NCBI GenBank assembly: GCA_900314165.1
Contig: OMUE01000230.1
Span: forward strand, 1-13,942
DNA length: 13,942 nt
Direction: 5' to 3'
Origin: an uncultured Acidaminococcus sp.
Lineage (GTDB): Bacteria > Bacillota_C > Negativicutes > Acidaminococcales > Acidaminococcaceae
Below the pieces are notes generated by a model, which was not told the origin of the DNA, made no database searches, and saw only the letters and a program-made list of their open reading frames with translations. Shown in pieces: positions 1-13,075 of this stretch. The translations under genes and the position numbers were made by a program. Within the stretch, counting starts at the first letter, position 1. Each line of letters opens with the position of its first letter.

Positions 1-125
1 CCCACGTTGGGACTGATGGTATGCAGGATGACGCCGATAGCCAGAAGCAGGGCCGTCATGGCGATCCACCGGTGGGTATCCTTCGCCGCCTCCACCGTAA
101 TCAGATCAGGAATCTCTTTCTCCAT
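1..125 (-). CDS. ECF/TrpP-like membrane transporter S component, N-terminal fragment
   Basis: This is a leftward gene cut by the window edge; only its first 41 codons are present. The start ATG (123-125) is preceded by a good ribosome binding site (AAAGGAG, about 8 nt upstream) and a sigma-A promoter at 166-194. The visible protein has a short charged cytoplasmic N-terminus (about residues 1-19) followed by a hydrophobic segment reading ALLLAIGVILHTISPNVG. That first helix resembles the start of small ECF-type S components and TrpP-like tryptophan transporters, whose first helix typically reads like LLLAIG.VLH. The match rests on one helix, so another small integral membrane protein is possible. 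The substrate cannot be stated. Confidence 0.5.
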   Translation of the reverse strand, partial: MEKEIPDLITVEAAKDTHRWIAMTALLLAIGVILHTISPNV

Positions 126-165
126 AATGAATGCTCCTTTATCAGAATAAAACGCTATAGCTATA

Positions 166-194
166 AGTGTAAGTGGATGTGTAAAGGAAGTCAA
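166..194 (-). promoter_or_regulatory. Sigma-A promoter of the 1-125 gene
   Basis: On the minus strand there is a -35 TTGACT (189-194), a 17-bp spacer and a -10 TACACT (166-171). The predicted transcript starts near 159, leaving a short leader of about 34 nt, too short for a T-box or large riboswitch. The leader contains a small palindrome (TATAGCTATA) of unknown meaning. Confidence 0.65.
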
Positions 195-210
195 GAGTTT
201 AGTGGACTGG

Positions 211-252
211 GATTAGATGATTAGATGATAGATGATAGATGATAGAAGTCAG
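211..252. repeat. Heptad tandem tract A (ATGATAG type)
   Basis: Six consecutive 7-bp units: GATTAGA, TGATTAG, ATGATAG three times, AAGTCAG. Five of the six end in AG and the three central ones are identical. The tract lies about 17 bp upstream of the promoter of the 1-125 gene. Nothing else recognisable lies between 195 and 305 except a near-palindrome CTCCTTAAGGAT at 282-293. It is one of six period-7 tracts in this window. Confidence 0.75.
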
Positions 253-313
253 AACACGGGTGTCAAATGGTAGAAGCTTACTCCTTAAGGATAGAAATTT
301 AAATAGTTAGTAC

Positions 314-512
314 CTAGTATAGAAGATTATAATTAACTTTCTGTTTGTACTAACCCGTAGGGGCGCATCGTAAGATGCGCCCACCAAGGATTCTTGACAA
401 GAAGATGCTTTGTGGGTTCATCTTACGATGAACCCCTACGGATTCGTGTCATGATTTTGCGTCTATATTAAGGTTAAGTAAACAGAAAGTTATTTGCAAA
501 TTTCTATACTAG
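314..512. mobile_element. MITE-like palindromic element with 33-bp terminal inverted repeats
   Basis: The ends are 33-bp inverted repeats (314-346 and 480-512; 28 of 33 positions match, including an 11-bp outer block CTAGTATAGAA and a perfect 13-bp inner block TAACTTTCTGTTT). Inside is a second inverted pair of 30 nt (355-384 and 412-441, 26 of 30 matching), each arm itself a hairpin with a 9-bp stem (361-382 and 414-435). A third hairpin, TTCTTG-A-CAAGAA, lies at 391-403. The element has no coding capacity, as expected for a non-autonomous element moved by a transposase in trans. CTAG at both tips could be a 4-bp target duplication, though it is palindromic and therefore ambiguous. The right end overlaps the 3' end of the M32 peptidase gene. 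Confidence 0.75.
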
Positions 513-2022
513 TGCCCGCTGGTTCAAGGTCGTAGAGAGGTAAGTATTTCTGCTCCAGATAGGCCAGGAAAGGCCGGGCATCCAGAGAACTTCCCGTAAG
601 ACGCTGTACCATTTCTCCGGCAGTGAAGCAGCAGCCATGGCGCCAAATGTTTTCCCGCATCCAATCATTAAGGGAGCTAAATTTCCCTTGGCGGATAGCT
701 TCCTGCCAGTTCGGTATATCCCGCTCCAGAGCCTGAAGAATCTGACCATCGTAAATATTGCCCAAAGCATAGCTCTGGAAGTAGCCAATATAGTCGCCAG
801 CCCAGTGCATATCCTGAAGGATTCCCTGAGTATCGTCAGGGGGACAGATTCCCAGATAGTCATGGTACTTTTTGTTCCAGGCCGCAGCCATATCCTCAGC
901 CCGAAGCTTGCCGGCAAAGTAATCCCGTTCCAACTCAAAGCGGAGGATGGCATGGAGGCTGTAGGTGACTTCATCGGAAGCTATGCGTTTAAAGCTGGGT
1001 TGCACTCTGTGGAGCCCCTTGTAGAACGTCTCCTGGTCCAGCGCCGCAAACTGGGGAAATGCCGCAATGAGTTTGGGGAAGCAGTAATCCCAATAAGCCC
1101 GGCTGCGGCCTACCATATTTTCATAAAAACGAGAATTAGCCTCATGGAAGCCCCCTTCAATGCCGCCCCACATTCCGGCGTCAATAACCTTTTGGCAGCT
1201 GCCGGCGGAGTACATAGCGTGGCCCGCTTCGTGAAGGCAGGTGAAGATAAGCTCATAACTGCCTGAACAGTAGGTGGAAACCCGAGCATCCCGGGGACCC
1301 ATAAAGGAAGTAAAGCCGTGGACCACTTTGTCATTAAACGTTCCAATGTCCGTGGTAAAGCCCAGCTCCCGGGCCAGGCTCTGGGCGAAGGCAGACATGG
1401 CTGCAGGGTCAACTTGAGGGTAGTTCACCTTTTCCGGTGCTGTACCGTGAGAAAGTTTGAGCATCAGGGCCTTCAGGCCCTGTTTCAACACGTCAAACTC
1501 CCGGGATATTTCATCCACTCTGGCGCCTTCATCTGTAAGCCCCACTAAAGTGTCGAAGGCAGGACAGTCCGGATTGATGGCTTCGGCAATCTGCTTTTTT
1601 AAATCAAAGGCCTGCTTGAGCCAGGGCTGGAAGATGCGATAATCCTTCGCTTCCCGTGCCTGCTTCCATTTTTCCATACATTCCGTTTTAATGAGGCTGT
1701 ACTGCCGCTGGAGTTTTTCCGGAGTATGAGCAGCCACCCGCCGACGGCTCAAAAAAGTACGGATGAGTCCCCGTTCCACCTCATCCTTAATCTCATGGAG
1801 AGGTATCTGGGCGAAGTATTCCTCCTCCTGGGCAGCCTGATCCGTACAATAGAGGCGATTTTTCCCCTGAGCAACGAAAGCCGCCATCTCCTGGCGGTAG
1901 GTCACACCCTTTTGCGGCAGGGCGGACCATTGGTCCAGCTCAAAAAGTGACTCTATGCTTTTAAAGTAGCGATATTCCCGGTTAATCTGTGTAATGATTT
2001 CCAGATGTTGTTGATAGTTCAT
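490..2022 (-). CDS. M32-family metallocarboxypeptidase (thermostable carboxypeptidase 1 type)
   Basis: A 510-residue cytosolic zinc carboxypeptidase (M32 members are usually about 500 aa) that removes C-terminal residues from peptides. The zinc-binding HEXXH motif is HEAGH at residues 264-268, and the family's second motif (HESQS in most members) appears as HEANS at 293-297, carrying the likely third zinc ligand Glu294. The family block upstream of the active site is present as GPRDARVST (242-250). The start has a strong AAGGAGG site 7 nt upstream. The gene follows abgT by only 71 bp and is probably co-transcribed with it. Oddity: the last residues (TSIEICK) and the TAA stop are read from the terminal repeat of the MITE at 314-512, so the native C-terminus was replaced after about LEPAG. 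The catalytic domain is intact. Confidence 0.93.
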   Translation of the reverse strand: MNYQQHLEIITQINREYRYFKSIESLFELDQWSALPQKGVTYRQEMAAFVAQGKNRLYCTDQAAQEEEYFAQIPLHEIKDEVERGLIRTFLSRRRVAAHTPEKLQRQYSLIKTECMEKWKQAREAKDYRIFQPWLKQAFDLKKQIAEAINPDCPAFDTLVGLTDEGARVDEISREFDVLKQGLKALMLKLSHGTAPEKVNYPQVDPAAMSAFAQSLARELGFTTDIGTFNDKVVHGFTSFMGPRDARVSTYCSGSYELIFTCLHEAGHAMYSAGSCQKVIDAGMWGGIEGGFHEANSRFYENMVGRSRAYWDYCFPKLIAAFPQFAALDQETFYKGLHRVQPSFKRIASDEVTYSLHAILRFELERDYFAGKLRAEDMAAAWNKKYHDYLGICPPDDTQGILQDMHWAGDYIGYFQSYALGNIYDGQILQALERDIPNWQEAIRQGKFSSLNDWMRENIWRHGCCFTAGEMVQRLTGSSLDARPFLAYLEQKYLPLYDLEPAGTSIEICK

Positions 2023-2049
2023 GCCAAATCCTCCTTAGTAAGAGTAATA

Positions 2050-2075
2050 CCGCCTGCCCCTGATGAGGCAGACGG
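2050..2075 (-). other. Stem-loop between abgT and the M32 gene
   Basis: A 9-bp stem (CCGCCTGCC with GGCAGACGG, one mismatch, or a G-U pair in RNA) closes a loop of about 8 nt, just after the abgT stop. No T-run follows in the leftward direction. It is more likely an mRNA-stabilising or partially attenuating hairpin within one operon than a terminator. Confidence 0.4.
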
Positions 2076-2093
2076 TACAGTAATTAACGATTT

Positions 2094-3614
2094 TCAACGC
2101 AGAAATACGGCAGCCCCGGGCCCAAGAGGCAGATCCAAGAACATCCAGGCAATGACAAAGATCGTCCAGATGATCAGGAAACCGAAGGAATAGGGAATCA
2201 TCATAGAGATGACGTTGCCCATACCGAATTTCTTATCGTACTTGGCGGCCATGCCGATGACCATGGGCAGATAGGGATAGATAGGAGTAATGGGGTTCGT
2301 ACAAGAATCGGCAATACGGTAAACCACTTGGGCGAACTCAGGGGTAAGTCCCAGCATCATGAACAAGGGCACGAAAATGGGTGCAAAGATGTACCATTTA
2401 GCGGTGCCGCTGGTCATAAAGAAATTAACAAAAGTGGTAACCAGCAGGATGGCCAGAATCAGAGGCACGCCGGTCAGTCCGATATTCTTCAGCAATGTAG
2501 CCGCATTGACAGCAATGATCATGGCCACGTTCGTGTAATTGAAAATAGCGATGAACTGGGCAATGACGAAGACCAGCACAATATAGCCGGTAAGGGAGGT
2601 AAGGGATTCGGACATGACCCGGGGAATATCCTCAAACTTCTTGAACGTACCTACCGTAAAGCCATAAACCATGCCCACCAGGACAAAGTAAGCCAACAGG
2701 AAAGGCACCAGGCCCGTAACGAAAGGTCCATTGATGATAGAGCCATTAGTGCCCCGCAACAGACCGTTGGACGGAATCAGGCCAATGAGAATGAGGCCGA
2801 TAAAGATGAGGGAAAAGATTCCCGCATTGCGCAGACCTTTCTTCTCCAGAGCAGTGGCATCACTGACTTGGTCTACTTCCGAGCCGGTAAATTTGCCCAG
2901 CCGGGGCTCAATGATATGGTCATTGACAAGAGTCCCTGCAATCGTCAGCACAAAACAGGAGGCAATCATGAAATACCAGTTGTTGGCAGGCGTTGTGGTG
3001 TAAGAAGGATCGATCAACTGGGCTGCTTCCTGGGTAACGCCGTACAGAAGAGCATCCGTAGCGGTAATCATCACGTTAGCCGTAAAGCCTGCGTTGGTGG
3101 CTGCATACCCGGCAATGAGGCCGGCCAGAGGGTGCTTGCCTGCCGCATAGAAGGCAGCAGCGGCGAGAGGTGGAATAAAGATAATGGACGCCTCGGAAGC
3201 GATGGAACCGTTAATGCCGATAAAGATGATGGTAGCCGTAAGAGCCCAGGCCGGTACACCCAACACAGCCCGCCGGATCGCCGTTGTGAGAAGGCCGCTG
3301 GACTCGGTAACACCGATTGCCATCTGCATAACCAGCACAATCCCCAAAGCGGCAAAGCCAGAAAAGTTTTTAACAAGGGATTTCAGGATCCACACTAAGC
3401 CGTCACGGGTCAGCAGACTTTTTACCACCACGACCTTACCGGTGGTGGGGTTTGTCGCCGATACGCCCATAGCGGCCAACACGGCAGCCAGCACGACTAG
3501 GATAACGATGAGATACAAAAACAGGATAAAGGGATGGGGAAGGGCATTGCCTACCCGCTCAATGGTGCCCAGAATGCCACCGGTTTTCTTTGCCGGGGAA
3601 TTGTTTGCCGCCAT
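2094..3614 (-). CDS. AbgT-family transporter (p-aminobenzoyl-glutamate transporter family)
   Basis: A 506-residue inner-membrane protein of the usual AbgT length with about 12 hydrophobic segments. The family signature NAGFTANVMITATDALLYG spans residues 174-192 (AbgT proteins usually read GFSANL...TDALLAG). A second conserved block near the C-terminus reads NPITPIYPYLPM. E. coli AbgT imports p-aminobenzoyl-glutamate, while some homologues (YdaH, MtrF) have been described as antimetabolite exporters, so direction and substrate are open. The start is MAANNSPAKK with an AGAAAGGA site about 11 nt upstream. The promoter at 3678-3706 and the palindrome at 3654-3677 imply repression by the TetR protein encoded just upstream. 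The gene is followed by the M32 peptidase rather than the M20 AbgA/AbgB pair found in E. coli. Confidence 0.92.
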   Translation of the reverse strand: MAANNSPAKKTGGILGTIERVGNALPHPFILFLYLIVILVVLAAVLAAMGVSATNPTTGKVVVVKSLLTRDGLVWILKSLVKNFSGFAALGIVLVMQMAIGVTESSGLLTTAIRRAVLGVPAWALTATIIFIGINGSIASEASIIFIPPLAAAAFYAAGKHPLAGLIAGYAATNAGFTANVMITATDALLYGVTQEAAQLIDPSYTTTPANNWYFMIASCFVLTIAGTLVNDHIIEPRLGKFTGSEVDQVSDATALEKKGLRNAGIFSLIFIGLILIGLIPSNGLLRGTNGSIINGPFVTGLVPFLLAYFVLVGMVYGFTVGTFKKFEDIPRVMSESLTSLTGYIVLVFVIAQFIAIFNYTNVAMIIAVNAATLLKNIGLTGVPLILAILLVTTFVNFFMTSGTAKWYIFAPIFVPLFMMLGLTPEFAQVVYRIADSCTNPITPIYPYLPMVIGMAAKYDKKFGMGNVISMMIPYSFGFLIIWTIFVIAWMFLDLPLGPGAAVFLR

Positions 3615-3653
3615 ATTGAATCAAATCCTTTCTCAATTTTACTCCGCTTTTCA

Positions 3654-3677
3654 AAAAAATGACCGCGGTCATTTTTT
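3654..3677. promoter_or_regulatory. 24-bp perfect palindrome, probable TetR operator
   Basis: A perfect palindrome centred on GACCGCGGTC, flanked by T6/A6 arms. It begins directly next to the -10 box of the abgT promoter and covers the predicted transcription start, so bound protein would block initiation. Core sequences of the form TGACC...GGTCA are common TetR-family operators. The nearest candidate repressor is encoded at 3776-4384. The A/T arms could also form a hairpin in the abgT leader, but the position over +1 favours an operator. Confidence 0.75.
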
Positions 3678-3706
3678 ATTATACGTTGTGCCTTATAGCG
3701 TGTCAA
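3678..3706 (-). promoter_or_regulatory. Consensus sigma-A promoter of the abgT-M32 operon
   Basis: Exact consensus on the minus strand: -35 TTGACA (3701-3706), 17-bp spacer, -10 TATAAT (3678-3683). The predicted start is near 3671, inside the palindrome at 3654-3677. A promoter this strong with an operator across its start fits a tightly repressed, strongly inducible operon. Confidence 0.88.
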
Positions 3707-3740
3707 GCAATCCTGAGCTTTGAAAAAAGCATAAAAGAAA

Positions 3741-3777
3741 GAGAAGTGAAAGGGCTGTGAAAACAGTTCTCCCTTTC
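3741..3777 (-). terminator. Intrinsic terminator of the TetR gene (first copy)
   Basis: The stem GAAAGGG/CCCTTTC (3748-3754 with 3771-3777) continues after a 4-nt bulge into CTGT/ACAG with a 4-nt loop. In the leftward direction it is followed by a pyrimidine-rich, T-rich stretch. The stem starts within the TGA stop of the TetR gene. It separates that gene from the abgT promoter. Confidence 0.6.
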
Positions 3778-4384
3778 AATTCTCCTTCGTACCGGAAGAA
3801 AAAATTCCCTTAGAAAATACATCCCAAAAGTACATGGTTTCTTCCGTCAGGTCTATGTCTCCTCCTTTGCAACACCATTCAAAAAAGGTAGAGCGAATTC
3901 CCCGCAGGATCAATATGGCCAATTCCTGTGCCGCCATAGTGCTACAACATTCTCCGGTTCGCTGCCCTTCCTCCAAGAGTTGAAGCAGGATATGAAAAAG
4001 TGTTCGTTTTTCATTCAAATCATCAACTCTCTGTCCGTTACCGGCTATTTCCTGGGTATACAGAGCCCGGATCAGATCCAGTCCGATGACCTCCTGGGTA
4101 AACTGGCAGGCCGCCTGAATCATCTGCCGTAAACGATGTTCCACGCTCCAGGAGGGATCCAGTTGGGCTGACACCGTGTCATAATAATCATCATAATGCC
4201 GCAGCATCTCAGTGATAATGTCGGCCTTTGTGTCAAAGTAATTGTAGAAAGAGCCTTTCGCCAGGCCTGCCTTCCGGACGATTTCATTCACGGAAACATG
4301 ATCATAGCCCTTCTCCCGAAACAGCTCCATAGCACAGTGGTAAAGCTGTTGTTTTGTCCGTTGTCCCTTCGTTTCACCCTTCAT
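3776..4384 (-). CDS. TetR/AcrR-family transcriptional regulator
   Basis: A 202-residue repressor-type protein. The N-terminal DNA-binding domain spans about residues 8-58, with the recognition region reading VNEIVRKAGLAKGSFYNYF (32-50), followed by an all-alpha ligand-binding domain with no recognisable signature. It lies upstream of and on the same strand as abgT. The palindrome over the abgT start is its most likely target, so it probably represses abgT-M32 until an inducer binds. No copy of that palindrome was seen at its own promoter (4466-4494), which argues against simple autoregulation through the same site. The ribosome binding site (GGAAAGGA) is unusually far, about 15 nt, from the ATG. 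A stop codon lies in frame just upstream, so no earlier start exists. Confidence 0.9.
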   Translation of the reverse strand: MKGETKGQRTKQQLYHCAMELFREKGYDHVSVNEIVRKAGLAKGSFYNYFDTKADIITEMLRHYDDYYDTVSAQLDPSWSVEHRLRQMIQAACQFTQEVIGLDLIRALYTQEIAGNGQRVDDLNEKRTLFHILLQLLEEGQRTGECCSTMAAQELAILILRGIRSTFFEWCCKGGDIDLTEETMYFWDVFSKGIFSSGTKEN

Positions 4385-4465
4385 GCCAGCTGTTTTCTAT
4401 CCTTTCCAACAATTTACTCCTGCATTGCAAAAATATATTACAATTTTACCAGTCAAGTTGCAAAT

Positions 4466-4494
4466 ATTATAACGTGCGCCGATACAATTTTCAA
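4466..4494 (-). promoter_or_regulatory. Sigma-A promoter of the first TetR gene
   Basis: Minus strand: -35 TTGAAA (4489-4494), 17-bp spacer, -10 TATAAT (4466-4471). The predicted leader is about 75 nt, AT-rich, without the 24-bp palindrome found in front of abgT. Confidence 0.65.
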
Positions 4495-4522
4495 TGTAAT
4501 AAAGGAGCCCTTCCTTGCAGTC

Positions 4523-4562
4523 GCAGCGCACGCCTTTTCACTTTTCACCGTTCTCTTTTCAC
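4523..4562. repeat. Dispersed repeat: GCAGCGCACGCC followed by heptad tract B
   Basis: The 12-mer GCAGCGCACGCC (4523-4534) is followed by four 7-bp units: TTTTCAC, TTTTCAC, CGTTCTC, TTTTCAC. The same composite occurs at 8394-8461, with the same 12-mer and the same order of a GTTCTC-type unit followed by TTTTCAC. It sits between the hsp20 terminator and the TetR promoter. Confidence 0.75.
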
Positions 4563-4566
4563 TCAC

Positions 4567-4610
4567 AAAAAAGCAGCTGCAGGAGCTCCCGCTCCCACAG
4601 CTGCTTTTTT
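4567..4610. terminator. Bidirectional intrinsic terminator after hsp20
   Basis: A 13-bp perfect stem (4567-4579 with 4598-4610) made of GCAGCTG/CAGCTGC with A6/T6 arms, so a T-run follows the hairpin in either direction. It begins 8 bp beyond the hsp20 stop, ends that leftward transcript and insulates the downstream TetR gene. Confidence 0.88.
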
Positions 4611-4618
4611 ACTATCCG

Positions 4619-5062
4619 TCATCCTTCGATGGCGATGAATTTCTTTTGTTCTACCTTTTCCGGTTCCTTCTTAGGAATGCTCAATTGCAGGATACCGTTT
4701 TCGTACTTAGCCTTCACATCGGCTTCCGTAATGGCGTCGCCTACGTAGAAGCTTCTTGCGCACTGGCCGTAAGTCCGTTCACGATGGATGTACTGGCCCT
4801 TCTGGTCCTTTTCATCCTTGTCCAGGCTCTTGCTGGCGCTGATGGTCATATAGCCATTTTCCAGTTCCGCGTGGATTTCATCCTTCTTGAAGCCCGGCAG
4901 GTCGATGTCCATTTCGTAATGGTCACCCAGATCCCGCACATCGGTCTTCATCATATTTCTGGCCCGTTTCCCGTACAGCGAATTCCGGTCCGTGAACACA
5001 TCGTCAAAATCATTCATTAAATCATCAAACACATTGTCATTGAAAACACTAGGCAGTAACAT
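4619..5062 (-). CDS. Small heat-shock protein, Hsp20/alpha-crystallin family
   Basis: A 147-residue ATP-independent holdase that binds unfolding proteins in the cytosol. The alpha-crystallin domain spans about residues 40-130 and ends with the family motif NGILQLSIPK (122-131). The C-terminus carries the oligomer-forming I-X-I motif (IAI, 143-145). The start is taken as the ATG at 5060-5062 because GGAGG lies 8 nt upstream. An earlier in-frame ATG at 5077 overlaps that ribosome binding site and has none of its own. Expression is probably HrcA-controlled through the CIRCE element at 5200-5226, which overlaps the -35 box. The leader of about 115 nt may add control. A regulator gene lies immediately upstream on the same strand without an obvious terminator, so some read-through is possible. 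Confidence 0.93.
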   Translation of the reverse strand: MLLPSVFNDNVFDDLMNDFDDVFTDRNSLYGKRARNMMKTDVRDLGDHYEMDIDLPGFKKDEIHAELENGYMTISASKSLDKDEKDQKGQYIHRERTYGQCARSFYVGDAITEADVKAKYENGILQLSIPKKEPEKVEQKKFIAIEG

Positions 5063-5132
5063 AAGCCATTCCTCCATTCAACATACTGGCCTTGAAGGTC
5101 GGAAACTTATTGGAACTACAGAGGCTTTCAGC

Positions 5133-5152
5133 GGGTTCCTCTCCCGGAACCC
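5133..5152 (-). other. Hairpin in the hsp20 leader
   Basis: A perfect 7-bp stem GGGTTCC/GGAACCC with a 6-nt loop lies near the 5' end of the predicted hsp20 leader. Further down, AAGCC and TTCC can pair with GGAA and GGCTT around the ribosome binding site. That could partly hide the site at low temperature, but the pairing is short and interrupted, so a thermosensor role is only a suggestion. Confidence 0.4.
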
Positions 5153-5183
5153 CTTTCCTTAGGTCTTCCTTCGTTCTGATTAT

Positions 5184-5212
5184 GTTATACCACCGTTTGT
5201 TAGCACTGTCAA
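5184..5212 (-). promoter_or_regulatory. Sigma-A promoter of hsp20
   Basis: Minus strand: -35 TTGACA (5207-5212), 17-bp spacer, -10 TATAAC (5184-5189). The -35 box lies inside the CIRCE inverted repeat, so HrcA binding would exclude RNA polymerase. The predicted start is near 5177. Confidence 0.85.
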
Positions 5213-5226
5213 GTGTTGAGTGCTAA
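5200..5226. promoter_or_regulatory. CIRCE operator (HrcA binding site)
   Basis: TTAGCACTG, 9-bp spacer, GAGTGCTAA. The consensus is TTAGCACTC-N9-GAGTGCTAA, so there is one mismatch in the left arm. CIRCE is the operator of the heat-shock repressor HrcA, best known in front of groESL and dnaK. Here it controls hsp20, whose -35 box overlaps it. Confidence 0.93.
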
Positions 5227-5252
5227 TTTTTTTGATTTTTTGACTTTTATTT

Positions 5253-5963
5253 TTAAACCATGGCCACTAACTTTCGTCCCAGATCCAGCATATAGGGTTC
5301 CTGGAGCATCATCTCCGAAATCAGCCTGGCGGCTATCCGTTCCGGCACTTCAAAAGCCTCCAGGGCCTTCTGCAGCAGCATTTTCTTCAGCTCTGCCTTG
5401 GGCATCAGCCTCTTGAACCGGTGGATCATAATGTACCCGCCTACCGCACTGCGCACCAGGAGCACCCTCTCGTAGCACTGCCGGGACGTAAACTTCCGGG
5501 CAAACATGGAATACGCAAAAGTGCTCTGCCGATCCACCATCTTTTCAAATAATGAAGGCGTCGTATAGGACACCTGGTACAAGCTGCAGACCAGGGCGTC
5601 ATTGTCTATGCCCTCCAGTTCCAGGGCCAGCAGGAACAAATACTGATATACGTCCTGGATTTCACGGGAATGGGCATTCATAGTCTCCGTAGCCGCCACT
5701 TCCTGGCGGATCAGCTGTTGGGCCAGCAGCATAGCCCGGCTGACCAGGGCTTCAAAGACCTCGTCCTTCGTCTTGTAGAGGCTGGTCACCGTCTGGAATT
5801 GGATACCGGAATCGTTGGCAATCTTCCGCAGGGACGTGCGGAGATAGCCCTGTTCCAGGAACATCTTCTTGGCCGTAGCCAGGATCAGCTGCTGGACGGG
5901 ATCTTTTATAGTAAGGTCTGTATTCAGTTCTGTTGGAGATAAAGGCTGCCATGTGCTGTCCAT
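5253..5963 (-). CDS. TetR/AcrR-family transcriptional regulator (second)
   Basis: A 236-residue regulator. The N-terminal TetR DNA-binding domain spans about residues 20-70 (ATAKKMFLEQGY, then LRKIANDSGIQFQTVTSLYKTK), followed by a long ligand-binding domain without a recognisable signature. The first 18 residues are an extension before the usual TetR start. The start is taken as the ATG at 5961-5963: in-frame TTG/ATG codons at 5991-6002 have no ribosome binding site and overlap the predicted promoter at 5985-6013, whereas this ATG has a weak AGG 7 nt upstream. The -35 box lies in a 12-bp palindrome, suggesting autorepression. Its target is unknown. Its neighbours are hsp20 downstream and the OmpM-like porin upstream, all leftward, but each of those has its own signals. 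Confidence 0.87.
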   Translation of the reverse strand: MDSTWQPLSPTELNTDLTIKDPVQQLILATAKKMFLEQGYLRTSLRKIANDSGIQFQTVTSLYKTKDEVFEALVSRAMLLAQQLIRQEVAATETMNAHSREIQDVYQYLFLLALELEGIDNDALVCSLYQVSYTTPSLFEKMVDRQSTFAYSMFARKFTSRQCYERVLLVRSAVGGYIMIHRFKRLMPKAELKKMLLQKALEAFEVPERIAARLISEMMLQEPYMLDLGRKLVAMV

Positions 5964-5984
5964 AATCGTACCTGTTTTACCTTT

Positions 5985-6018
5985 TTTATACATCATATAC
6001 AATGGGGCGTAAATACGC
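5985..6018 (-). promoter_or_regulatory. Promoter of the second TetR gene with overlapping palindrome
   Basis: Minus strand: -35 TTTACG (6008-6013; 4 of 6 consensus), 17-bp spacer, -10 TATAAA (5985-5990). The -35 lies inside GCGTAAATACGC (6007-6018), a 5-bp inverted repeat with a 2-bp centre, which could be an autoregulatory operator. It predicts a leader of only about 15 nt. Confidence 0.45.
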
Positions 6019-6053
6019 TATACATAAACTCTGAAATCCTTGCCCATTATAGA

Positions 6054-6085
6054 AAAAAGGACGACTCCGAAGAATCGTCCTTTTT
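6054..6085. terminator. Bidirectional intrinsic terminator of the porin gene
   Basis: An 11-bp stem AAAAAGGACGA/TCGTCCTTTTT. On the porin (minus) strand the stem extends to a UUC(UUCG)GAG cap, a very stable UUCG tetraloop, followed by a T-run. The arms also give a T-run on the plus strand. It lies about 50 bp beyond the porin stop. Confidence 0.92.
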
Positions 6086-6137
6086 GCATCCATCCGTTTA
6101 GGGGGAAGGACATGTCTGCTTTTTAGAGCAAGCTGAA

Positions 6138-7451
6138 TTAGAAGGTTACGATCATTTGAGACCACAGGGTCCGTGCATGTTGATCGTCCTTGTAGTCGTC
6201 GCTGTTGCTGCGGCCTTTCAGGTCATAGTATTCAACGGTAGCAACCATGTTCTTGGCAATAGCCCAGTTAGCGCCTACGTTCCAGCCCTTGAAGCCTTCA
6301 GGACCGAATTTATCGTAGTTGCCGTTCATGGTATGAGCGATGTAGGTAGCGCCGCCCTGATCATAGTAGTGAGCGAACAGGCCCCAAGAACCGGGTTTGG
6401 AAGCCTTAGCGCCTTTGTAGGCTACAGTAGCTACCCAGCCATCATGATCGGGTTCTGCATCAGATTTAGCATCTTTTACAACTTTATCGTCGGCATCGCC
6501 GTGCAGGTACATAGCGCCGATCTTCCAGTCGTCTGCGTGCCAGGTAGCAGCAGCGGTCCAGATGTTGTCGCTGCCGGTCATCCAACCAGTAGAACCATTT
6601 TTGAGATCAGTCGTATCAATATCTTTTACATGGAAGTAGTTGGCTTCCAGGTTCCATTTACCCCAGTCAGCGCCCACTACAGCTTGGGTGAATTCGCCGG
6701 CAATGGAATCTTTCGTGCTAAACTTGTCATCATCCTGGTCAACAACGTCCTTGTTAGCCATCTTGCCCCAGGTTGCGCCGATGTAGGTTACGCCGGATTT
6801 ACCACTCAGGTTCACAGCGTCCACACGGGTATCGTATACGTTACCATCAGCATAGGTACCGTTGTAACGGCCAGCAGTCATGTTGACTACACCGATGTTA
6901 CCGGTCACGTAAGCTCTCTGGAACTTTGTTTCGGTTTCGCCGGAGTCATTCTTGTCATTGTGGTTGATCCAGTGCTGCTGGTTCTGCAGCATGCCCACAT
7001 AATGCCAGTTGTCATTCACTTCGCCGGTGAAGAACAGACGGGAACGAGTGACGGAAGAAGACGGATTCTTCAGGTCGCCGTAGCTTTGGTTGTAGATGGT
7101 ACGGATGTTGCCAGTGATTTTCACATTGTCAGCATTCTTTTCCAGTTTAGCAACGCGAACGCCCAGGTTGTCCAGTTCGTCAGCGAATTCGCTAACCAGT
7201 TTGTCGTCAGCACCGATAGCGCCTTTAGCCAGAGCCTTGGCAACGATCTGAGCCATTTCATAACGGGTCATGGTCTTGTCGCCTTTGAAGGTGCCATCAG
7301 GATAGCCGTCAACGATGCCGGCAGCAGCCAGTTTAGCCACAGCGCCATAAGCCCAGTGACCAGCAGGCAGATCGGAGAAGGGGTTAGCTGCGAAAGCAGT
7401 AGCGCTAACGCCCAGTGCCATAGCCATGGCAAATACTAAAGATTTTTTCAT
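6138..7451 (-). CDS. SLH-domain outer-membrane porin, OmpM type
   Basis: A 437-residue outer-membrane protein of the kind that tethers the outer membrane to peptidoglycan in diderm Firmicutes. A signal peptide at residues 1-21 is cleaved after AFA. One SLH domain follows (about 24-75: FSDLPAGHWAYGAV, then GIVDGYPDGTF, then MTRYEMAQIV). Next comes a short coiled-coil linker (about 85-108) and a long region of alternating polar/aromatic strands typical of a beta-barrel, ending in Phe (QMIVTF), the usual signal for outer-membrane insertion. In Negativicutes the SLH domain binds polyamine-modified peptidoglycan. The start is the ATG at 7449-7451 with AAGGAGG upstream; the frame stays open upstream through the leader, but a start there would bury the signal peptide. 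It is followed by a strong terminator and is likely a highly expressed single gene. Confidence 0.92.
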   Translation of the reverse strand: MKKSLVFAMAMALGVSATAFAANPFSDLPAGHWAYGAVAKLAAAGIVDGYPDGTFKGDKTMTRYEMAQIVAKALAKGAIGADDKLVSEFADELDNLGVRVAKLEKNADNVKITGNIRTIYNQSYGDLKNPSSSVTRSRLFFTGEVNDNWHYVGMLQNQQHWINHNDKNDSGETETKFQRAYVTGNIGVVNMTAGRYNGTYADGNVYDTRVDAVNLSGKSGVTYIGATWGKMANKDVVDQDDDKFSTKDSIAGEFTQAVVGADWGKWNLEANYFHVKDIDTTDLKNGSTGWMTGSDNIWTAAATWHADDWKIGAMYLHGDADDKVVKDAKSDAEPDHDGWVATVAYKGAKASKPGSWGLFAHYYDQGGATYIAHTMNGNYDKFGPEGFKGWNVGANWAIAKNMVATVEYYDLKGRSNSDDYKDDQHARTLWSQMIVTF

Positions 7452-7480
7452 GATAAAAGCCTCCTTGGATAAAATTTGCC

Positions 7481-7522
7481 CGTCCGGACGTTCCAGGAGG
7501 TTCATGAATCTTCTCGTGCGAG
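7481..7522 (-). other. Hairpins in the porin leader
   Basis: Two small palindromes lie in the predicted leader of about 140 nt: CGTCCGGACG (7481-7490) and CTCG-TG-CGAG (7513-7522). Long structured leaders are common on stable outer-membrane protein mRNAs. A specific regulatory role is not shown. Confidence 0.35.
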
Positions 7523-7600
7523 TATCCTTGTTTCCTCTACGGAGCTGAACCATGTTCCCCTTGTGCCGCCCATTCAGGCTGTAGGTTTTACCATGGTTTT

Positions 7601-7609
7601 AGTGTAGCA
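7601..7609 (-). promoter_or_regulatory. Candidate extended -10 promoter of the porin gene
   Basis: Minus strand TGC-TACACT (extended -10). The hexamers at 16-18 bp upstream match the -35 consensus poorly, so the call rests on the extended -10. It predicts a leader of about 140 nt. The upstream AT-rich stretch (7615-7735) may hold another promoter that I could not define. Confidence 0.4.
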
Positions 7610-7731
7610 TTTGCCCTGTTTTCAATTCTATAAAATCCGTGAGAGTTCCCAATTACTCCTTTTAATCACGTAAACTTATAGTGAATTCCAATTTTTTATC
7701 ACCGTAGTATTGTGACAAATTGTGAACTTTA

Positions 7732-7766
7732 GAAAGAGACGTTAGATTTTAGACGTTAGAGGCTAG
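7732..7766. repeat. Heptad tandem tract C (ACGTTAG type)
   Basis: Five consecutive 7-bp units: GAAAGAG, ACGTTAG, ATTTTAG, ACGTTAG, AGGCTAG. Four end in TAG. It marks the left border of the repeat-rich, gene-free interval that ends near 8465. Confidence 0.7.
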
Positions 7767-7799
7767 TGGCCGCTGGCCGTAGACTGTGCCCTGCACGGA

Positions 7800-7898
7800 C
7801 ACCCCCACCACCGGCTACGCCGGTCCCCCGTCCCCGCTTGAAGCGAGGGCGGACAGGGGGCAGTACAGCGCACTGGACAGAGCACGCCCCCTGTACAG
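7800..7898. repeat. GC-rich palindromic repeat unit 1
   Basis: A run of hairpins: ACCGGC-TAC-GCCGGT, then arms CCCCCGTCC...CGCTT and AAGCG...GGAC-GGGGG, then GGGGGC...GCCCCC around GCAGTACAGCGCAC. It opens with CCCCACCACC and contains the 18-mer GGGGGCAGTACAGCGCAC (7856-7873), both shared with the unit at 8201-8405. It has no convincing coding content. Confidence 0.65.
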
Positions 7899-7901
7899 AC
7901 C

Positions 7902-7930
7902 TTGTCATTCTCTTGAAAACAAAGTATAAT
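7902..7930 (+). promoter_or_regulatory. Strong sigma-A promoter facing the 7942-8068 inverted repeat
   Basis: Plus strand: -35 TTGTCA (7902-7907), 17-bp spacer, -10 TATAAT (7925-7930). The predicted start near 7937 falls a few bases before the base of the long inverted repeat, and no protein gene follows for more than 500 bp. That spacing suggests transcription of a non-coding RNA. Confidence 0.65.
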
Positions 7931-7936
7931 ACAGAC

Positions 7937-8068
7937 AAAAGAGGTACTGCCGATAAGCGGTCAGCCCCTTGAGTTTTTAGTTAAAAATTAACCGCCAACG
8001 TGGGGACGTAGGGGCGGTTAATTTTTTTAAGGGGCGAAAATTGACCGCCTACCGTTATCGCAGTACCT
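7937..8068 (+). ncRNA. Candidate structured small RNA or palindromic element
   Basis: The sequence folds into one long rod. AGGTACTG (7942-7949) pairs with 8061-8068, CGATAA (7951-7956) with 8055-8060, GCGGTCA (7957-7963) with 8042-8048, and GCCCCTT (7964-7970) with 8029-8035. A 14-bp hairpin (7983-7996 with 8013-8026) forms the tip. Both asymmetric bulges are 6 nt and lie on the 3' arm (8036-8041 and 8049-8054). Within the tip, TTAACCGCC/GGCGGTTAA followed by seven Ts (8022-8028) is a good intrinsic terminator, so the main product could be about 92 nt (7937-8028), with read-through giving the full rod. A mobile palindromic repeat is the main alternative. It is not recognisable as 6S, SRP, tmRNA or RNase P RNA. 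Confidence 0.5.
7988..8028 (+). terminator. Intrinsic terminator inside the structured element
   Basis: A perfect 9-bp stem TTAACCGCC (7988-7996) with GGCGGTTAA (8013-8021), then seven Ts. It is the only clear terminator downstream of the 7902-7930 promoter. The 16-nt loop contains ACGT-GGGG-ACGT. Confidence 0.65.
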
Positions 8069-8069
8069 G

Positions 8070-8140
8070 TTGATAGTATACTATATAAAGTCGTAAATTA
8101 CAAACATATGTTCGTTTTACGTAATTACATGTTTAGAGCT
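8070..8140. other. AT-rich island with short palindromes
   Basis: It contains ATAGTATACTAT (8073-8084), AACATATGTT (8103-8112) and GTAATTAC (8121-8128), plus an imperfect direct repeat (TCGTAAATTACAAACAT at 8091-8107 and ACGTAATTACATGTTT at 8119-8134). It is clearly more AT-rich than the repeats on both sides. It could be a protein-binding region or the remnant of an older intergenic segment. No gene was found in it. Confidence 0.4.
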
Positions 8141-8200
8141 GTCCTCTGTATGCACCCCCACCAGCTTGGATAAGACGTCAGACATCAGTAGTCCTCTGGA

Positions 8201-8405
8201 CGGCCCCACCACCATCCTACGGATGGTTCCCCTCCCCTGCGGGGATGACAGGGCGCTGCCCAGCGGGCTGTCATCCCCGCAGGGATCTTGTCATCCCCGT
8301 AGGGGAGGAGGACCGTCTGCAAAAACAAGTTAGTTCAAGGCAGATGGTGGTGGGGCTGGGCGGAGCCCTTTACAAAGATGGCGAGGGGGCAGTGCAGCGC
8401 ACGCC
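8201..8405. repeat. GC-rich palindromic repeat unit 2 with nested inverted repeats
   Basis: The outer 14-bp inverted repeat GCCCCACCACCATC (8203-8216) pairs with 8343-8356. The inner 17-bp perfect inverted repeat (8235-8251 with 8268-8284) has the core GCGGGGATGACAG. A third copy of the inner motif follows directly (TTGTCATCCCCGTAGGGG, 8288-8305). The unit ends with GGGGGCAGTGCAGCGCAC (8385-8402), which differs by one base from the 18-mer of unit 1. This looks like a chromosomal palindromic repeat family rather than a gene; the frames open through it are compositionally repeat-like. Confidence 0.7.
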
Positions 8406-8461
8406 TCTTCACTTTTCACTTTTCACTGTTCACTTTTCACTGTTCTCTTTTCACTTTTCAC
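8406..8461. repeat. Heptad tandem tract D (TTTTCAC type)
   Basis: Eight exact 7-bp units over 56 bp: TCTTCAC, TTTTCAC, TTTTCAC, TGTTCAC, TTTTCAC, TGTTCTC, TTTTCAC, TTTTCAC. It directly follows the 12-mer GCAGCGCACGCC (8394-8405), as at 4523-4562. The seventh and eighth units supply the probable -35 of the promoter at 8450-8478. Confidence 0.85.
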
Positions 8462-8478
8462 TTAACCAATGCTATAAT
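8450..8478 (+). promoter_or_regulatory. Promoter of the 114-aa gene, -35 within the heptad tract
   Basis: -35 TTCACT (8450-8455; 4 of 6 consensus), 17-bp spacer, -10 TATAAT (8473-8478) with an extended TG at 8470-8471. The -35 is built from repeat units, so gain or loss of whole units need not change the spacing and may leave a similar -35. Confidence 0.65.
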
Positions 8479-8511
8479 ACAAGTATACCAAACGAAAGAA
8501 GGAAATCTCCT

Positions 8512-8856
8512 ATGGAAAATTATACCGAATTAATGGCTGCTGTGAAAGAATTGATTGCTGCGCCCAGCTGCTATGGTCCTCTGAAAGAATTAGCTGAAAA
8601 GTGGGTGGCCGCTGACGGTACCGCTGCCCAGGCCAATCTGACGGCTCTGCTGAAGGGCGCCCTGAAGGAAGACGTTTGCACCATTGATGACGTGCTGCCG
8701 TTCTTCGCTTCCGACGCTGCCAAAGAAGCTTTTGGCGCCGAAGCTGCCGCTGCCATGCTGAAGCAAGGCCAGGAAGTGAAAGCTGCCGGTGGCAAGTACT
8801 GCTTCTGCCCTGCCTGCACCGCCGGTGCCAAGATCCTGGGATTGCTGGGAGAATAA
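8512..8856 (+). CDS. Small conserved protein with C-terminal CxCxxC motif, function unknown
   Basis: A 114-residue, soluble, alanine-rich and probably all-helical protein. The C-terminal motif is KYCFCPACTAG, with Cys97, Cys99 and Cys102 in a C-X-C-X2-C arrangement suited to metal binding or redox chemistry; Cys20 and Cys56 are also present. It resembles a family of roughly 120-aa Firmicutes proteins ending in AGAKYCDCPAC, which I recall being labelled heat-shock or Hsp90-like in databases. No Hsp90 domain is visible here and the label should not be trusted. The start ATG has GAAGGA about 9 nt upstream; the same frame is open back to 8245, but that stretch is repeat DNA. It has its own promoter and a shared terminator (8939-8978), and is the only rightward protein gene in the window. 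Confidence 0.8.
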   Translation: MENYTELMAAVKELIAAPSCYGPLKELAEKWVAADGTAAQANLTALLKGALKEDVCTIDDVLPFFASDAAKEAFGAEAAAAMLKQGQEVKAAGGKYCFCPACTAGAKILGLLGE

Positions 8857-8867
8857 TTATCTCGGTT

Positions 8868-8902
8868 ACGACAGACGACATACGACGACCGACGGACGAA
8901 AG
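8868..8902. repeat. Heptad tandem tract E (ACGACNN type)
   Basis: Five 7-bp units: ACGACAG, ACGACAT, ACGACGA, CCGACGG, ACGAAAG. It begins 11 bp after the stop of the 114-aa gene. Read on the opposite strand, its units match tract F at 9035-9069. A perfect hairpin CCACGC-TACC-GCGTGG (8908-8923) follows. Confidence 0.7.
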
Positions 8903-8938
8903 AGGAACCACGCTACCGCGTGGAATATAAAGACATAC

Positions 8939-8978
8939 AAAAACCCACCTACTCGTGCTACACGAATAAGTGGGTTTT
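8939..8978. terminator. Bidirectional terminator between convergent genes
   Basis: The stem AAAACCCAC/GTGGGTTTT (8940-8948 with 8970-8978) encloses an inner hairpin TCGTG-CTA-CACGA. T-runs follow in both directions, so it can serve the 114-aa gene (plus) and fumarase (minus). Confidence 0.88.
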
Positions 8979-9034
8979 CTCTTGCTTTAAAAAACTACCG
9001 ACAAGCAACGTTCCAAGCTAATAGCAGAAACAAG

Positions 9035-9069
9035 CGTCCGTCGTCCGTCGGTTGTCGTCCGTCGTTCTT
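9035..9069. repeat. Heptad tandem tract F (CGTCCGT type)
   Basis: Five 7-bp units: CGTCCGT, CGTCCGT, CGGTTGT, CGTCCGT, CGTTCTT. It ends exactly where the fumarase stop codon begins (9070-9072). On the fumarase strand the units read ACGGACG, the same family as tract E, so the two tracts form an inverted pair around the shared terminator. Confidence 0.75.
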
Positions 9070-10443
9070 TTACACCATTTCTTCCGGATGGAACACCTTA
9101 TCGAAGTCTTCCTCTGTCATGTAACCCAGCTTCAGGACGGCTTCTTTCAGGGAAATGTTATCCTTGAAGGCCTGTTTGGCTACCTTGGCACAGTTATCGT
9201 AGCCGATATAGGGGCTGAGAGCCGTCACCAGCATCAGGGAATTGTGCAGGTTATGAGACATCTTTTCCTTGTTGGCCTTGATGCCCACGGCGCAGTTCTT
9301 CCGGAAGGAGGCCATGACGTCTCCCAGCAGCCGCACGGACTGCAGGAAATTGTAGATGGTCACCGGCAGGAACACGTTCAGCTGGAAATTCCCCTGGGAG
9401 TTCGTAAAGCCGATGGTGGCGTCGTTGCCCATGACCTGGACGGCCACCATAGTCACAGCTTCGCACTGAGTGGGGTTCACCTTGCCGGGCATAATGGAGG
9501 AACCCGGTTCGTTGGCAGGAATGGTGATTTCGCCTAACCCATCCCGAGGCCCGGAAGCCAGCCAGCGCACGTCGTTGGCGATCTTCATCATATTGCCGGC
9601 CAGAGCCTTCAAAGCCCCGTGGGCGAACACCATATCGTCCAAGCTGGTGAGAGCGTGGAACTTGTTAGGCGCCGTCACAAAGGCATAGCCCGTATTTTCC
9701 GCAATATGGGCCGCGGCTTTTTCCGCAAAGCCTTTGGGAGCGTTCAGCCCCGTACCTACGGCCGTGCCGCCAAGAGCCAGTTCCAGCAGGCCCTTTTCTG
9801 CCAGTTTCAGTTCGTCTCTATTCCGTTCCAGCATGGTGCGCCAGCCGGAAATTTCCTGGGAGAAGGCTACGGGTACAGCGTCCTGCAGATGGGTCCGGCC
9901 CGTGGTGACGATGCCCTTGTTCTCTTCTTCCAGGGTCTTAAAGGTTTCTACCAAGGCGTCCAGGGACGGCAGCAAGGTCTTTTCGATTTCCCATACGGCG
10001 GAGATGTGCATGGCTGTCGGGAACGTGTCGTTGGAGCTCTGGGACATATTCACGTGGTCGTTAGGGTGCAGCAGGGTCTCGCCGGCGATTTCGTTGCCCC
10101 GGTGAGCGATGACTTCGTTGACGTTCATGTTGCTCTGGGTGCCGCTGCCCGTCTGCCATACGGCCAGAGGGAAGTTGCCGTCCAGCTTGCCGGCCAGAAT
10201 TTCGTCGCAGACCTGGCAGATGATGGCACAGCGCTTGTCGTCCAGCTTGCCCAGTTCATGGTTAGCCTGAGCAGCAGACTTTTTCAAATACGCAAAAGCC
10301 CGGATGACTTCCATAGGAACCTTTTCCGTGCCGATTTTGAAGTTTTCAAAGCTGCGCTCCGTCTGGGCGCCCCAATATTTATCCGCAGGGACCTTCATTT
10401 CCCCCATGGAGTCGTGTTCGATCCGCCATTTTGTATCCGTCAT
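9070..10443 (-). CDS. fumC: Class II fumarate hydratase
   Basis: A 457-residue iron-independent fumarase that interconverts fumarate and L-malate in the cytosol; it forms a tetramer in its family and has the usual length of about 460 aa. Family landmarks are all present: SGTQSNMN (100-107), SSND (136-139), TGRTHLQDAVP (181-191, with the conserved His185) and the superfamily signature loop GSSIMPGKVNPTQ (314-326) carrying the catalytic serine. Aspartase, a close relative, is less likely given the fumarase-type N-terminus (RIEHDSMGEMKVPADKYWGAQT) and TGRTHLQD block. The start has GAGGGGG 7 nt upstream. It has its own promoter (10479-10507) and is separated from the upstream TRAP operon by a strong terminator, so it is probably monocistronic. 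Confidence 0.95.
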   Translation of the reverse strand: MTDTKWRIEHDSMGEMKVPADKYWGAQTERSFENFKIGTEKVPMEVIRAFAYLKKSAAQANHELGKLDDKRCAIICQVCDEILAGKLDGNFPLAVWQTGSGTQSNMNVNEVIAHRGNEIAGETLLHPNDHVNMSQSSNDTFPTAMHISAVWEIEKTLLPSLDALVETFKTLEEENKGIVTTGRTHLQDAVPVAFSQEISGWRTMLERNRDELKLAEKGLLELALGGTAVGTGLNAPKGFAEKAAAHIAENTGYAFVTAPNKFHALTSLDDMVFAHGALKALAGNMMKIANDVRWLASGPRDGLGEITIPANEPGSSIMPGKVNPTQCEAVTMVAVQVMGNDATIGFTNSQGNFQLNVFLPVTIYNFLQSVRLLGDVMASFRKNCAVGIKANKEKMSHNLHNSLMLVTALSPYIGYDNCAKVAKQAFKDNISLKEAVLKLGYMTEEDFDKVFHPEEMV

Positions 10444-10478
10444 ACCGTTACCCCCTCGTAATAGTTAAGTTTAGCTTG

Positions 10479-10507
10479 ATTATTTCATAGGATGGAAAGG
10501 ATGTCAA
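10479..10507 (-). promoter_or_regulatory. fumC: Sigma-A promoter of fumC
   Basis: Minus strand: -35 TTGACA (10502-10507), 17-bp spacer, -10 AATAAT (10479-10484). The -35 is only 7 bp from the stem of the TRAP operon terminator, a compact terminator-promoter junction. Confidence 0.75.
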
Positions 10508-10514
10508 ATAAAAG

Positions 10515-10546
10515 AAACGAGCAGTTCCCGAAGGAACTGCTCGTTT
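10515..10546 (-). terminator. Intrinsic terminator of the TAXI TRAP operon
   Basis: A 14-bp perfect stem (10515-10528 with 10533-10546), core ACGAGCAGTTCC, with a UUCG tetraloop on the minus strand and a T-rich tail. It lies 11 bp beyond the permease stop and marks the end of the leftward operon. Confidence 0.93.
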
Positions 10547-10557
10547 TATCATTTGAC

Positions 10558-12582: not shown

Positions 12583-13066
12583 CAAAGAATCCCCTCTTTT
12601 CTATGATAAGTGTAAGTCTCGTATGTTCCGGCAAGAGCCGTCCACTGGTTATCAGTGTGTCGTTCAGTTTGATCTGCCGGGTCGCGTAATGAGAATTCAG
12701 CCAGTCGATTCGTTGAAACACCTGACCAATCTCATCCATGTAAATGTTCCCCTTTTCGTCCACCCACACTTTCTTTCCCTTGTTTTCGGGGATGCCCGCC
12801 CCGAAAGCGGGAAAAGAAATCGTGTCCAACACCAGACTGTTGTCGGACGCTACATGGAAGTATTCATGCCAATGGATGTGTTCCAACGAATGAATCCAGC
12901 CGAAAAATAATCTATCCCCCGGCTTGGCAGGGAATTCCACGTAAATTTTCTGGGTTTTAAAATCTTTGATTCTCATGACTGTCTGGTTAGCCCAGTGCCA
13001 CCAGCCCAGCAGGCCGATGACAATGGGCACTAACAGACAGAAAAGCCATTTTTTTCTGGGTTTCAT
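12557..13066 (-). CDS. DUF1850 domain protein of the TAXI TRAP operon
   Basis: A 169-residue protein with an N-terminal hydrophobic helix (about residues 8-24) that would anchor or export it, leaving a domain outside the inner membrane. Family landmarks are HSLEHIHWHEYF (59-70) and SFPAFGAGIPE (84-94), matching the HS-E...W-E-F and FGAG-P pattern of DUF1850. These proteins are repeatedly found between TAXI receptors and fused TRAP permeases, but their role is not established; an accessory part of the transporter is the natural guess. The start is ATG 13064-13066 (a GTG directly precedes it). There is no clear ribosome binding site, and the ATG is only 9 bp after the receptor's stop, so reinitiation by ribosomes leaving the receptor gene is likely. 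Its 3' end overlaps the permease gene. Confidence 0.88.
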   Translation of the reverse strand: MKPRKKWLFCLLVPIVIGLLGWWHWANQTVMRIKDFKTQKIYVEFPAKPGDRLFFGWIHSLEHIHWHEYFHVASDNSLVLDTISFPAFGAGIPENKGKKVWVDEKGNIYMDEIGQVFQRIDWLNSHYATRQIKLNDTLITSGRLLPEHTRLTLIIEKRGFFDGRLEENR

Positions 13067-13075
13067 CACACCAGA

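Follow-up and report, generated by a model that had tools for sequence, protein, structure and literature searches.

Heptad repeats of many unlike sequences in the spacers of an uncultured Acidaminococcus and its relatives

Why should tandem repeats that differ in sequence, scattered over the spacers of a single stretch of bacterial DNA, share a period of seven bases? The question is raised by 13,942 nucleotides from an uncultured Acidaminococcus sp. (contig OMUE01000230.1, positions 1 to 13,942, hereafter the window), for which a first-pass annotation had described six tandem tracts, each breaking into strict 7-mers, located between genes, either at promoters or immediately downstream of stop codons, and attributed to one generating mechanism or to selection for a 7-bp spacing rather than to the spread of one element. 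The tracts are degenerate heptad repeats that probably arise from the duplication and deletion of whole 7-bp (sometimes 14-bp) lengths, with a step that depends on the lineage, complemented by the spread of some arrays on dispersed elements. In relatives of the organism, the excess of period 7, the multiplicity of unit families, length differences by whole units, the dispersed elements and the resemblance between adjacent units are all seen directly.

Heptad tracts in the window

Tandem Repeats Finder (TRF) reported period-7 arrays at 214-246, 4534-4563, 7737-7760, 8408-8463, 8868-8903 and 9035-9065, so that all six annotated tracts were recovered at roughly the same places. The window spacers (2,524 bp, on a list presuming a gene start near base 126) contain these six arrays and one array of period 8, compared with 0.01 period-7 arrays per shuffle, and never more than one, in 200 dinucleotide shuffles of the same spacers. 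Lag 7 was the best of lags 3 to 12 in every tract. The repeats are degenerate, with a lag-7 identity of 61-86%, and the first tract requires an indel; the description as strict, clean 7-mers overstates their regularity.

Four unit families are represented, namely ATGATAG, TTTTCAC, ACGTTAG and GACGACN, with eight units in tract 4 and four to six in each of the other five. Tract 1, (ATGATAG)n at 211-252, has its TRF core at 214-246 with the indel inside (22/35 matches at lag 7) and lies in mid-spacer, as does tract 3, (ACGTTAG)n at 7732-7787, with 17/28 matches for 7732-7766 and a register that continues, by eye only, through TGGCCGC TGGCCGT AGACTGT at 7767-7787. Tract 2 (4535-4562; 15/21), made of TTTTCAC with the variant CGTTCTC, is found by eye past a hairpin located 3' of hsp20. 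Its unit is common to tract 4 (8406-8461, plus strand; TRF score 91; 42/49), whose eight TTTTCAC-type units include the variants TCTTCAC, TGTTCAC and TGTTCTC, and both tracts follow GCAGCGCACGCC. Tract 5 (8868-8902, plus strand; 20/28) begins 11 bp past a stop codon and reads, one phase on, GACAGAC GACATAC GACGACC GACGGAC; tract 6 (9035-9069, minus strand; 20/28) adjoins the fumC stop codon and reads GACGGAC GACAACC GACGGAC as its reverse complement. These last two form one GACGACN-type family on opposite strands, with 84% identity over 31 bp and 94% over 18 bp. The location at promoters or after stop codons therefore holds for the tracts at 8406-8461, 8868 and 9035 but not for those at 211, 4535 and 7732. 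In relatives, no clear preference of arrays for promoter or terminator sides emerged, with 0.38 arrays per kb in divergent, 0.45 in tandem and 0.53 in convergent spacers (39 arrays).

Period 7 in relatives and the growth of arrays by whole units

Genome-wide counts refer to sampled stretches of relatives rather than to the window's own genome. In the main TRF count, which covered about 238 kb of noncoding DNA from 12 genomes and kept one best row per place, 45 noncoding arrays had period 7, compared with five of period 8, one of period 9 and none of periods 4 to 6; the excess over neighbouring periods, on which the first-pass annotation had staked its proposal, is thus present in relatives. 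The remaining arrays had periods 3 (1), 10 (3), 11 (12) and 12 (14), and nine had period 14 without a 7-bp sub-period. Noncoding DNA was delimited by a crude mask of open reading frames (ORFs), and arrays were partly lost to false ORFs (in G002, 14 of 28 arrays counted as noncoding). A lag test on noncoding DNA gave nine lag-7 runs in G002, seven in G007 and six in G009, against none in five Markov shuffles, and the same statistic at lag 8 gave four runs in G002.

The load is patchy. Per 10 kb of noncoding DNA, it reached 2.8 in G002, 3.2 in G007 and 3.3 in G009; the values for G008 (3.3), G257 (3.7) and G271 (5.1) come from just two to four arrays per genome. It fell to 0.4-0.7 in G005 and G006 (a single array each) and to zero in G001, G003, G004 and G167, where other counting rules give one array in G003, and where the noncoding samples, 5 kb for G001 and 3 kb for G167, do not suffice for a verdict on these two; G257, G271 and G167 had been selected for carrying TTTTCAC. 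Farther away, 20 stretches from other families yielded three noncoding arrays, in G042 only, and 20 from the class yielded one, in G257.

The shared period does not come with a shared sequence. When one mismatch is allowed, the 155 array hits, some of them drawn from loci that overlap, group into 34 unit families, and sampled genomes of relatives hold several unlike heptads. The claim of one period without a common sequence is upheld in this sense, even though the six window tracts reduce to four families. Loci were also fetched from IMG/VR with the bait units TTTTCAC, CTAGTGA and GTTGACA and, once units within two mismatches of a bait were discarded, their 237 kb contained 27 noncoding arrays of period 7, as opposed to two in 780 kb from 79 control loci of cellular genomes. 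A second, non-bait heptad family occurs in 15 of 28 such loci (26 contigs, some possibly related). For TTTTCAC, searching with the reversed unit provided no control, as this unit read backwards is its own rotation. Two IMG/VR loci, L222 and L223, belong to one contig (IMGVR_UViG_3300031867_000530) with phage-like genes by eye and 61% GC in L223; their many arrays have unlike units (TGCTGCC, GCTATCC, GGGTGTT, CTTTTCC, ACATTTC, TTTTCAC), several closely upstream of ORFs. One array of L222 matches tract 4 at 96.7% identity over 61 bp, with the variant units in identical order by eye and the similarity confined to the heptads, a likeness that may reflect either shared descent or convergence. At the 3' spacer of fumC, tracts 5 and 6 of the window correspond to a GTCACTA array in G002 and to just a terminator-like hairpin in G006 and G005; one site can thus have heptads or lack them, with differing units.

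As regards the way arrays change, G002 and G009 have a dispersed element organized as hairpin-TTCCATCGG-array-GGGGTGTGA hairpin. A related pattern, with up to three mismatches allowed, recurs 45 times in G002 and 97 times in G009; G006 also has the element and G007 carries a TTCCACGG version of it. Among 57 exact-flank copies in G002 and G009, sought with gaps of 10-40 bases, the flank-to-flank length is 33, 40, 47 or 54 in 55 copies and 52 and 46 in the other two. Two element copies with similar flanks bear arrays of 43 and 127 bp. Orthologous arrays differ in length by exactly 14 bp between G006 and G005 (L270/L253) and by exactly 7 bp between G002 and G009 (L122/L150). Six aligned spacer sets comprise two unit-step cases, two in which the element is missing in one species, one inverted case and one that is uninterpretable (L119/L154); in the inverted case, a hairpin-heptad element occupies the same spacer in G002 (L252) and G009 (L255). 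Within 18 arrays of at least eight units, neighbouring units match at 5.73 of seven positions, against 5.35 after shuffling, a value attained in none of 2,000 shuffles, and unit identity declines from 0.82 to about 0.6 at separations of 9-12 units. Together, the whole-unit differences, the likeness of neighbours and its decay with distance are consistent with the duplication and loss of entire units.

Template slippage, one of the mechanisms suggested at the outset, fits best with the whole-unit differences and the likeness of neighbouring units. Tracts would be built by local duplication and loss in whole steps of 7 bp, sometimes 14 bp, most likely through strand slippage or misaligned recombination, two processes that are indistinguishable from the present data. 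Spacer DNA would be the site, as it tolerates frame-breaking changes. With a step length that is a property of the lineage, many spacer sequences, often near a hairpin, could turn into heptad arrays and later drift, and dispersed hairpin-bearing elements would then carry some arrays around the genome. From the relatives, we infer that slippage has also operated in the species of the window. More tentatively, some lineages may possess a heritable state of replication or repair that duplicates almost any spacer sequence by sevens, the period itself being the inherited trait; among close relatives, such a state looks strong in G002, G007 and G009, whereas G003 and G004 seem to have little or none of it.

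Several observations weigh against this reading. It leaves the number seven unexplained, and MutS1 was found in 16 of the 16 genomes tried, which discounts a loss of mismatch repair as the cause. The unit-number comparisons concern element copies and two ortholog pairs, rather than strains of one species or the window tracts. Twelve of the 18 long arrays come from the single contig of L222/L223, where some arrays consist of abutting unlike units, which by itself gives a fall-off of similarity with distance. In the element of G007, GCG at a 7-bp spacing is kept far better than the four intervening bases, which is unexpected under simple drift. Other periods are not silent either: the IMG/VR loci have eight period-8 arrays in 237 kb, against two in the 780 kb of controls, and an about threefold rise per base over controls for periods 9-13, so that general repeat richness accounts for part of the IMG/VR signal, which is strongest at 7. 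G002 has period-8 arrays too, and a loose detector applied to coding and noncoding DNA, which demands four units and therefore favours short ones, gave 31, 14, 25, 43, 2 and 1 segments at periods 4 to 9, respectively. Two period-8 arrays of G002, GTGGTTAA (L126:4624-4716) and AACCACTT (L120:13499-13539), resemble heptads plus one base.

Selection, passenger elements and other accounts of the period

The strongest competitor, though an unlikely one, is selection for a 7-bp spacing, with a protein or RNA partner reading a short core in each heptad, so that the core and its spacing are kept while the rest varies. The element of G007 provides support for it, with a mean entropy per phase of 0.34, 0.49 and 0.35 for GCG against 0.93, 1.58, 0.91 and 1.52 for the other positions over 30 copies, although these are the copies, out of 55, retained for having at least 12/24 lag-7 matches, and by eye they go back to about two ancestral arrays. 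Likewise, the sites of G002 mostly hold GAC with four other bases that vary (TAGT, TAGA, CGCT, AGCT, CGTT, CAGT), but the GAC register is broken at two of nine unselected sites, one of the nine being a non-array. GAC also recurs four times in 7-base steps in tract 5. A precedent exists in the plasmid protein omega2, which binds 7-10 contiguous heptads (PMC4498918); no omega-family protein was found in 12 relatives, a search in which the control genome gave no match either. Across all families, conserved phases are not significantly contiguous (349 of 3,000 permutations did as well, with 34 cluster representatives), nor are they in 97 arrays of the Acidaminococcus group (960 of 3,000), and the arrays' lack of a clear preference for one spacer type likewise speaks against selection. 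A conserved contiguous core common to the heptad families was accordingly discarded, a GCG or GAC skeleton being present inside the dispersed element; for that element, despite the negative all-family test, the base pattern leaves spacing read by a protein possible.

Somewhat less probable still is the proposal that the tracts are mere passengers, i.e. copies of one or a few hairpin elements, similar to repetitive extragenic palindromes (REPs) or bacterial interspersed mosaic elements (BIMEs), that contain a 7-bp array, the period being common by descent. Many arrays of G002, G009 and G007 indeed sit inside the dispersed hairpin element, and the window has tract pairs with a common flank or sequence. 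Besides, tract 5 adjoins a GGAA-headed hairpin with a 6-bp stem (GGAACCACGCTACCGCGTGG, 8905-8924, plus strand), which also scored as terminator-like on the minus strand. Such strict GGAA-hairpins, however, are found next to just 13 of the 92 arrays sampled, compared with 162 of 10,000 noncoding places taken at random, and at none of the other five window tracts. The families GATGAAC, CTCTTCC, AGTGCAG and AGTGGAT are located outside the element, and contigs fetched with one heptad are full of others. The initial statement that the tracts do not reflect the spread of one element is therefore right only in part, given the many arrays that the element carries. REPs and BIMEs are likewise dispersed extragenic hairpins, often paired, with a variable segment between them (PMC2817692), but they have a GT(A/G)G head where the heptad-bearing element has GGAA. 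Spread by a Y1 transposase was considered and rejected: a Y1_Tnp match is present in seven of nine genomes and absent from G003 and G006, the latter of which has the element, and transposase loci lack it as far as eight of them show, where three exact words of the element frame gave one match (L371), with no heptad after it. By eye, and with the origin assumed near base 1, element copies in G002 number 16 on the plus and eight on the minus strand in the first half of the genome and 12 and nine in the second, with no clear bias towards a replication strand.

A dedicated enzyme writing heptads, such as a reverse transcriptase, a terminal-transferase-like polymerase or one with a telomerase-like template, is highly improbable: its sole support, in a study that included no search for such enzymes, is the combination of a fixed length with a free sequence, and copies of the same family differ by whole units plus point variants, with neighbours most alike, as DNA-copying errors predict. 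A purine/pyrimidine strand bias of the units was dismissed as well, the observed value of 2.41 lying below the 2.61 expected. An origin by chance or through the settings of TRF, suggested by the low scores of tracts 3 and 5 (34 and 35), is practically excluded by six tracts where 0.01 was expected and by an independent lag statistic that concurs in relatives.

Genomic setting and relation to known heptad systems

By Pfam, the window encodes an M32 carboxypeptidase, an AbgT transporter, two TetR regulators, an Hsp20, an SLH-domain protein, fumarase C, a DctM transporter and an NMT1-like binding protein. Its fumarase is closest, among the 80 matches listed, to that of an uncultured Acidaminococcus (82% protein identity), and 4.9 kb of the window align to G002 and G006 at 79% DNA identity. 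No Rfam family reached its gathering score in the window, neither a plasmid search nor one of IMG/VR with the M32 protein as query gave a match, and two IMG/VR scans with the repeat flanks each returned one contig, otherwise dissimilar to the window. Two REP-like hairpins with a GTAG head and 9-bp stems, GTAGGGGCGCATCGTAAGATGCGCCC (357-382, plus strand) and GTAGGGGTTCATCGTAAGATGAACCC (414-439, minus strand), lie in opposite orientation and resemble a BIME pair. In a 1-kb divergent spacer, AGGGGGCAGTRCAGCGCAC occurs in two copies (7855-7873 and 8384-8402) that are 529 bp apart. Between tracts 4 and 5, an ORF of 114 aa (8512-8856, plus strand; C-terminal end CFCPACTAGAKILGLLGE) has no Pfam match; by eye, three loci of relatives (L084, L085 and L092) have a similar coding sequence past their own fumC 3' spacer. 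Upstream of this ORF is a putative sigma-70-like promoter, TTCACT-17-TATAAT with a TG preceding the -10 box (8450-8478, plus strand), which matches the consensus at 10 of 12 positions in a region where eight such sites were found and 1.5 expected. Its predicted -35 box, TTCACT (8450-8455), falls within tract 4, whose unit number could tune expression.

Comparable heptads have been described elsewhere. The first-pass annotation named filamentous cyanobacteria, where they are known, but they extend far beyond these organisms (PMC4692102; PMC4679880; PMC8262952). Heptads of Xanthomonas (GGGAATC) and Nostoc (GGGGA(C/T)T) are intergenic like those of the window, vary in length and sequence at the same spacers of close relatives and form some inverted pairs (PMC4692102), but each is a single G-rich family with G-quadruplex potential; the window units lack the run of at least three G per unit of the quadruplex-forming GGGNATC type. 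TAACTGA direct repeats, reported in Beggiatoaceae, some Cyanobacteria and Bacteroidetes, keep one fixed sequence, with related heptamers seldom repeated, and mostly stand right before start codons (PMC4679880); TAACTGA is not among the window units. ATCTTTC heptads at hmw1A of Haemophilus influenzae overlap the promoter boxes, as tract 4 overlaps a predicted -35 box, and whole-heptad changes in unit number alter expression (PMC8262952); that case differs in being one contingency locus with a long array and a demonstrated effect. The parS iterons of omega2 are runs of 7-10 contiguous 7-bp units that overlap promoters, a format into which the eight units of tract 4 fit, and serve as a plasmid partition and repressor site (PMC4498918). 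Three heptanucleotides are also on record for Calothrix, and a 2025 survey describes a subset of 6-9-bp units as highly enriched in prokaryotic phyla (PMC12699852). Published cases described in detail mostly involve one unit per genome, e.g. GGGAATC, GGGGA(C/T)T or TAACTGA. No paper on heptads in Negativicutes or Acidaminococcus was found among the results listed in a search that left out most subscription journals; the searched text of PMC4060949 has no word starting with "hepta", and "tandem" is absent from that of the A. fermentans genome paper (PMC3035267).

An excess of heptamers in bacteria is thus already known: simple repeats of seven bases were found over-represented in many genomes by Mrazek, Guo and Shah (2007, as cited in PMC4692102). 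What appears to be added here, relative to that excess, is the coexistence of many unrelated units in one genome and a load that is uneven among close relatives, the heptad-rich and heptad-poor ones probably belonging to one genus. Where arrays overlap promoters, apparently the case for tract 4, their unit number could tune gene expression. For the preference for seven, noted since 2007, the sole explanation found on record is the conjecture of a polymerase contact (as cited in PMC4692102); related genomes rich and poor in heptads, with many unit sequences, would allow the question of why seven to be tested.

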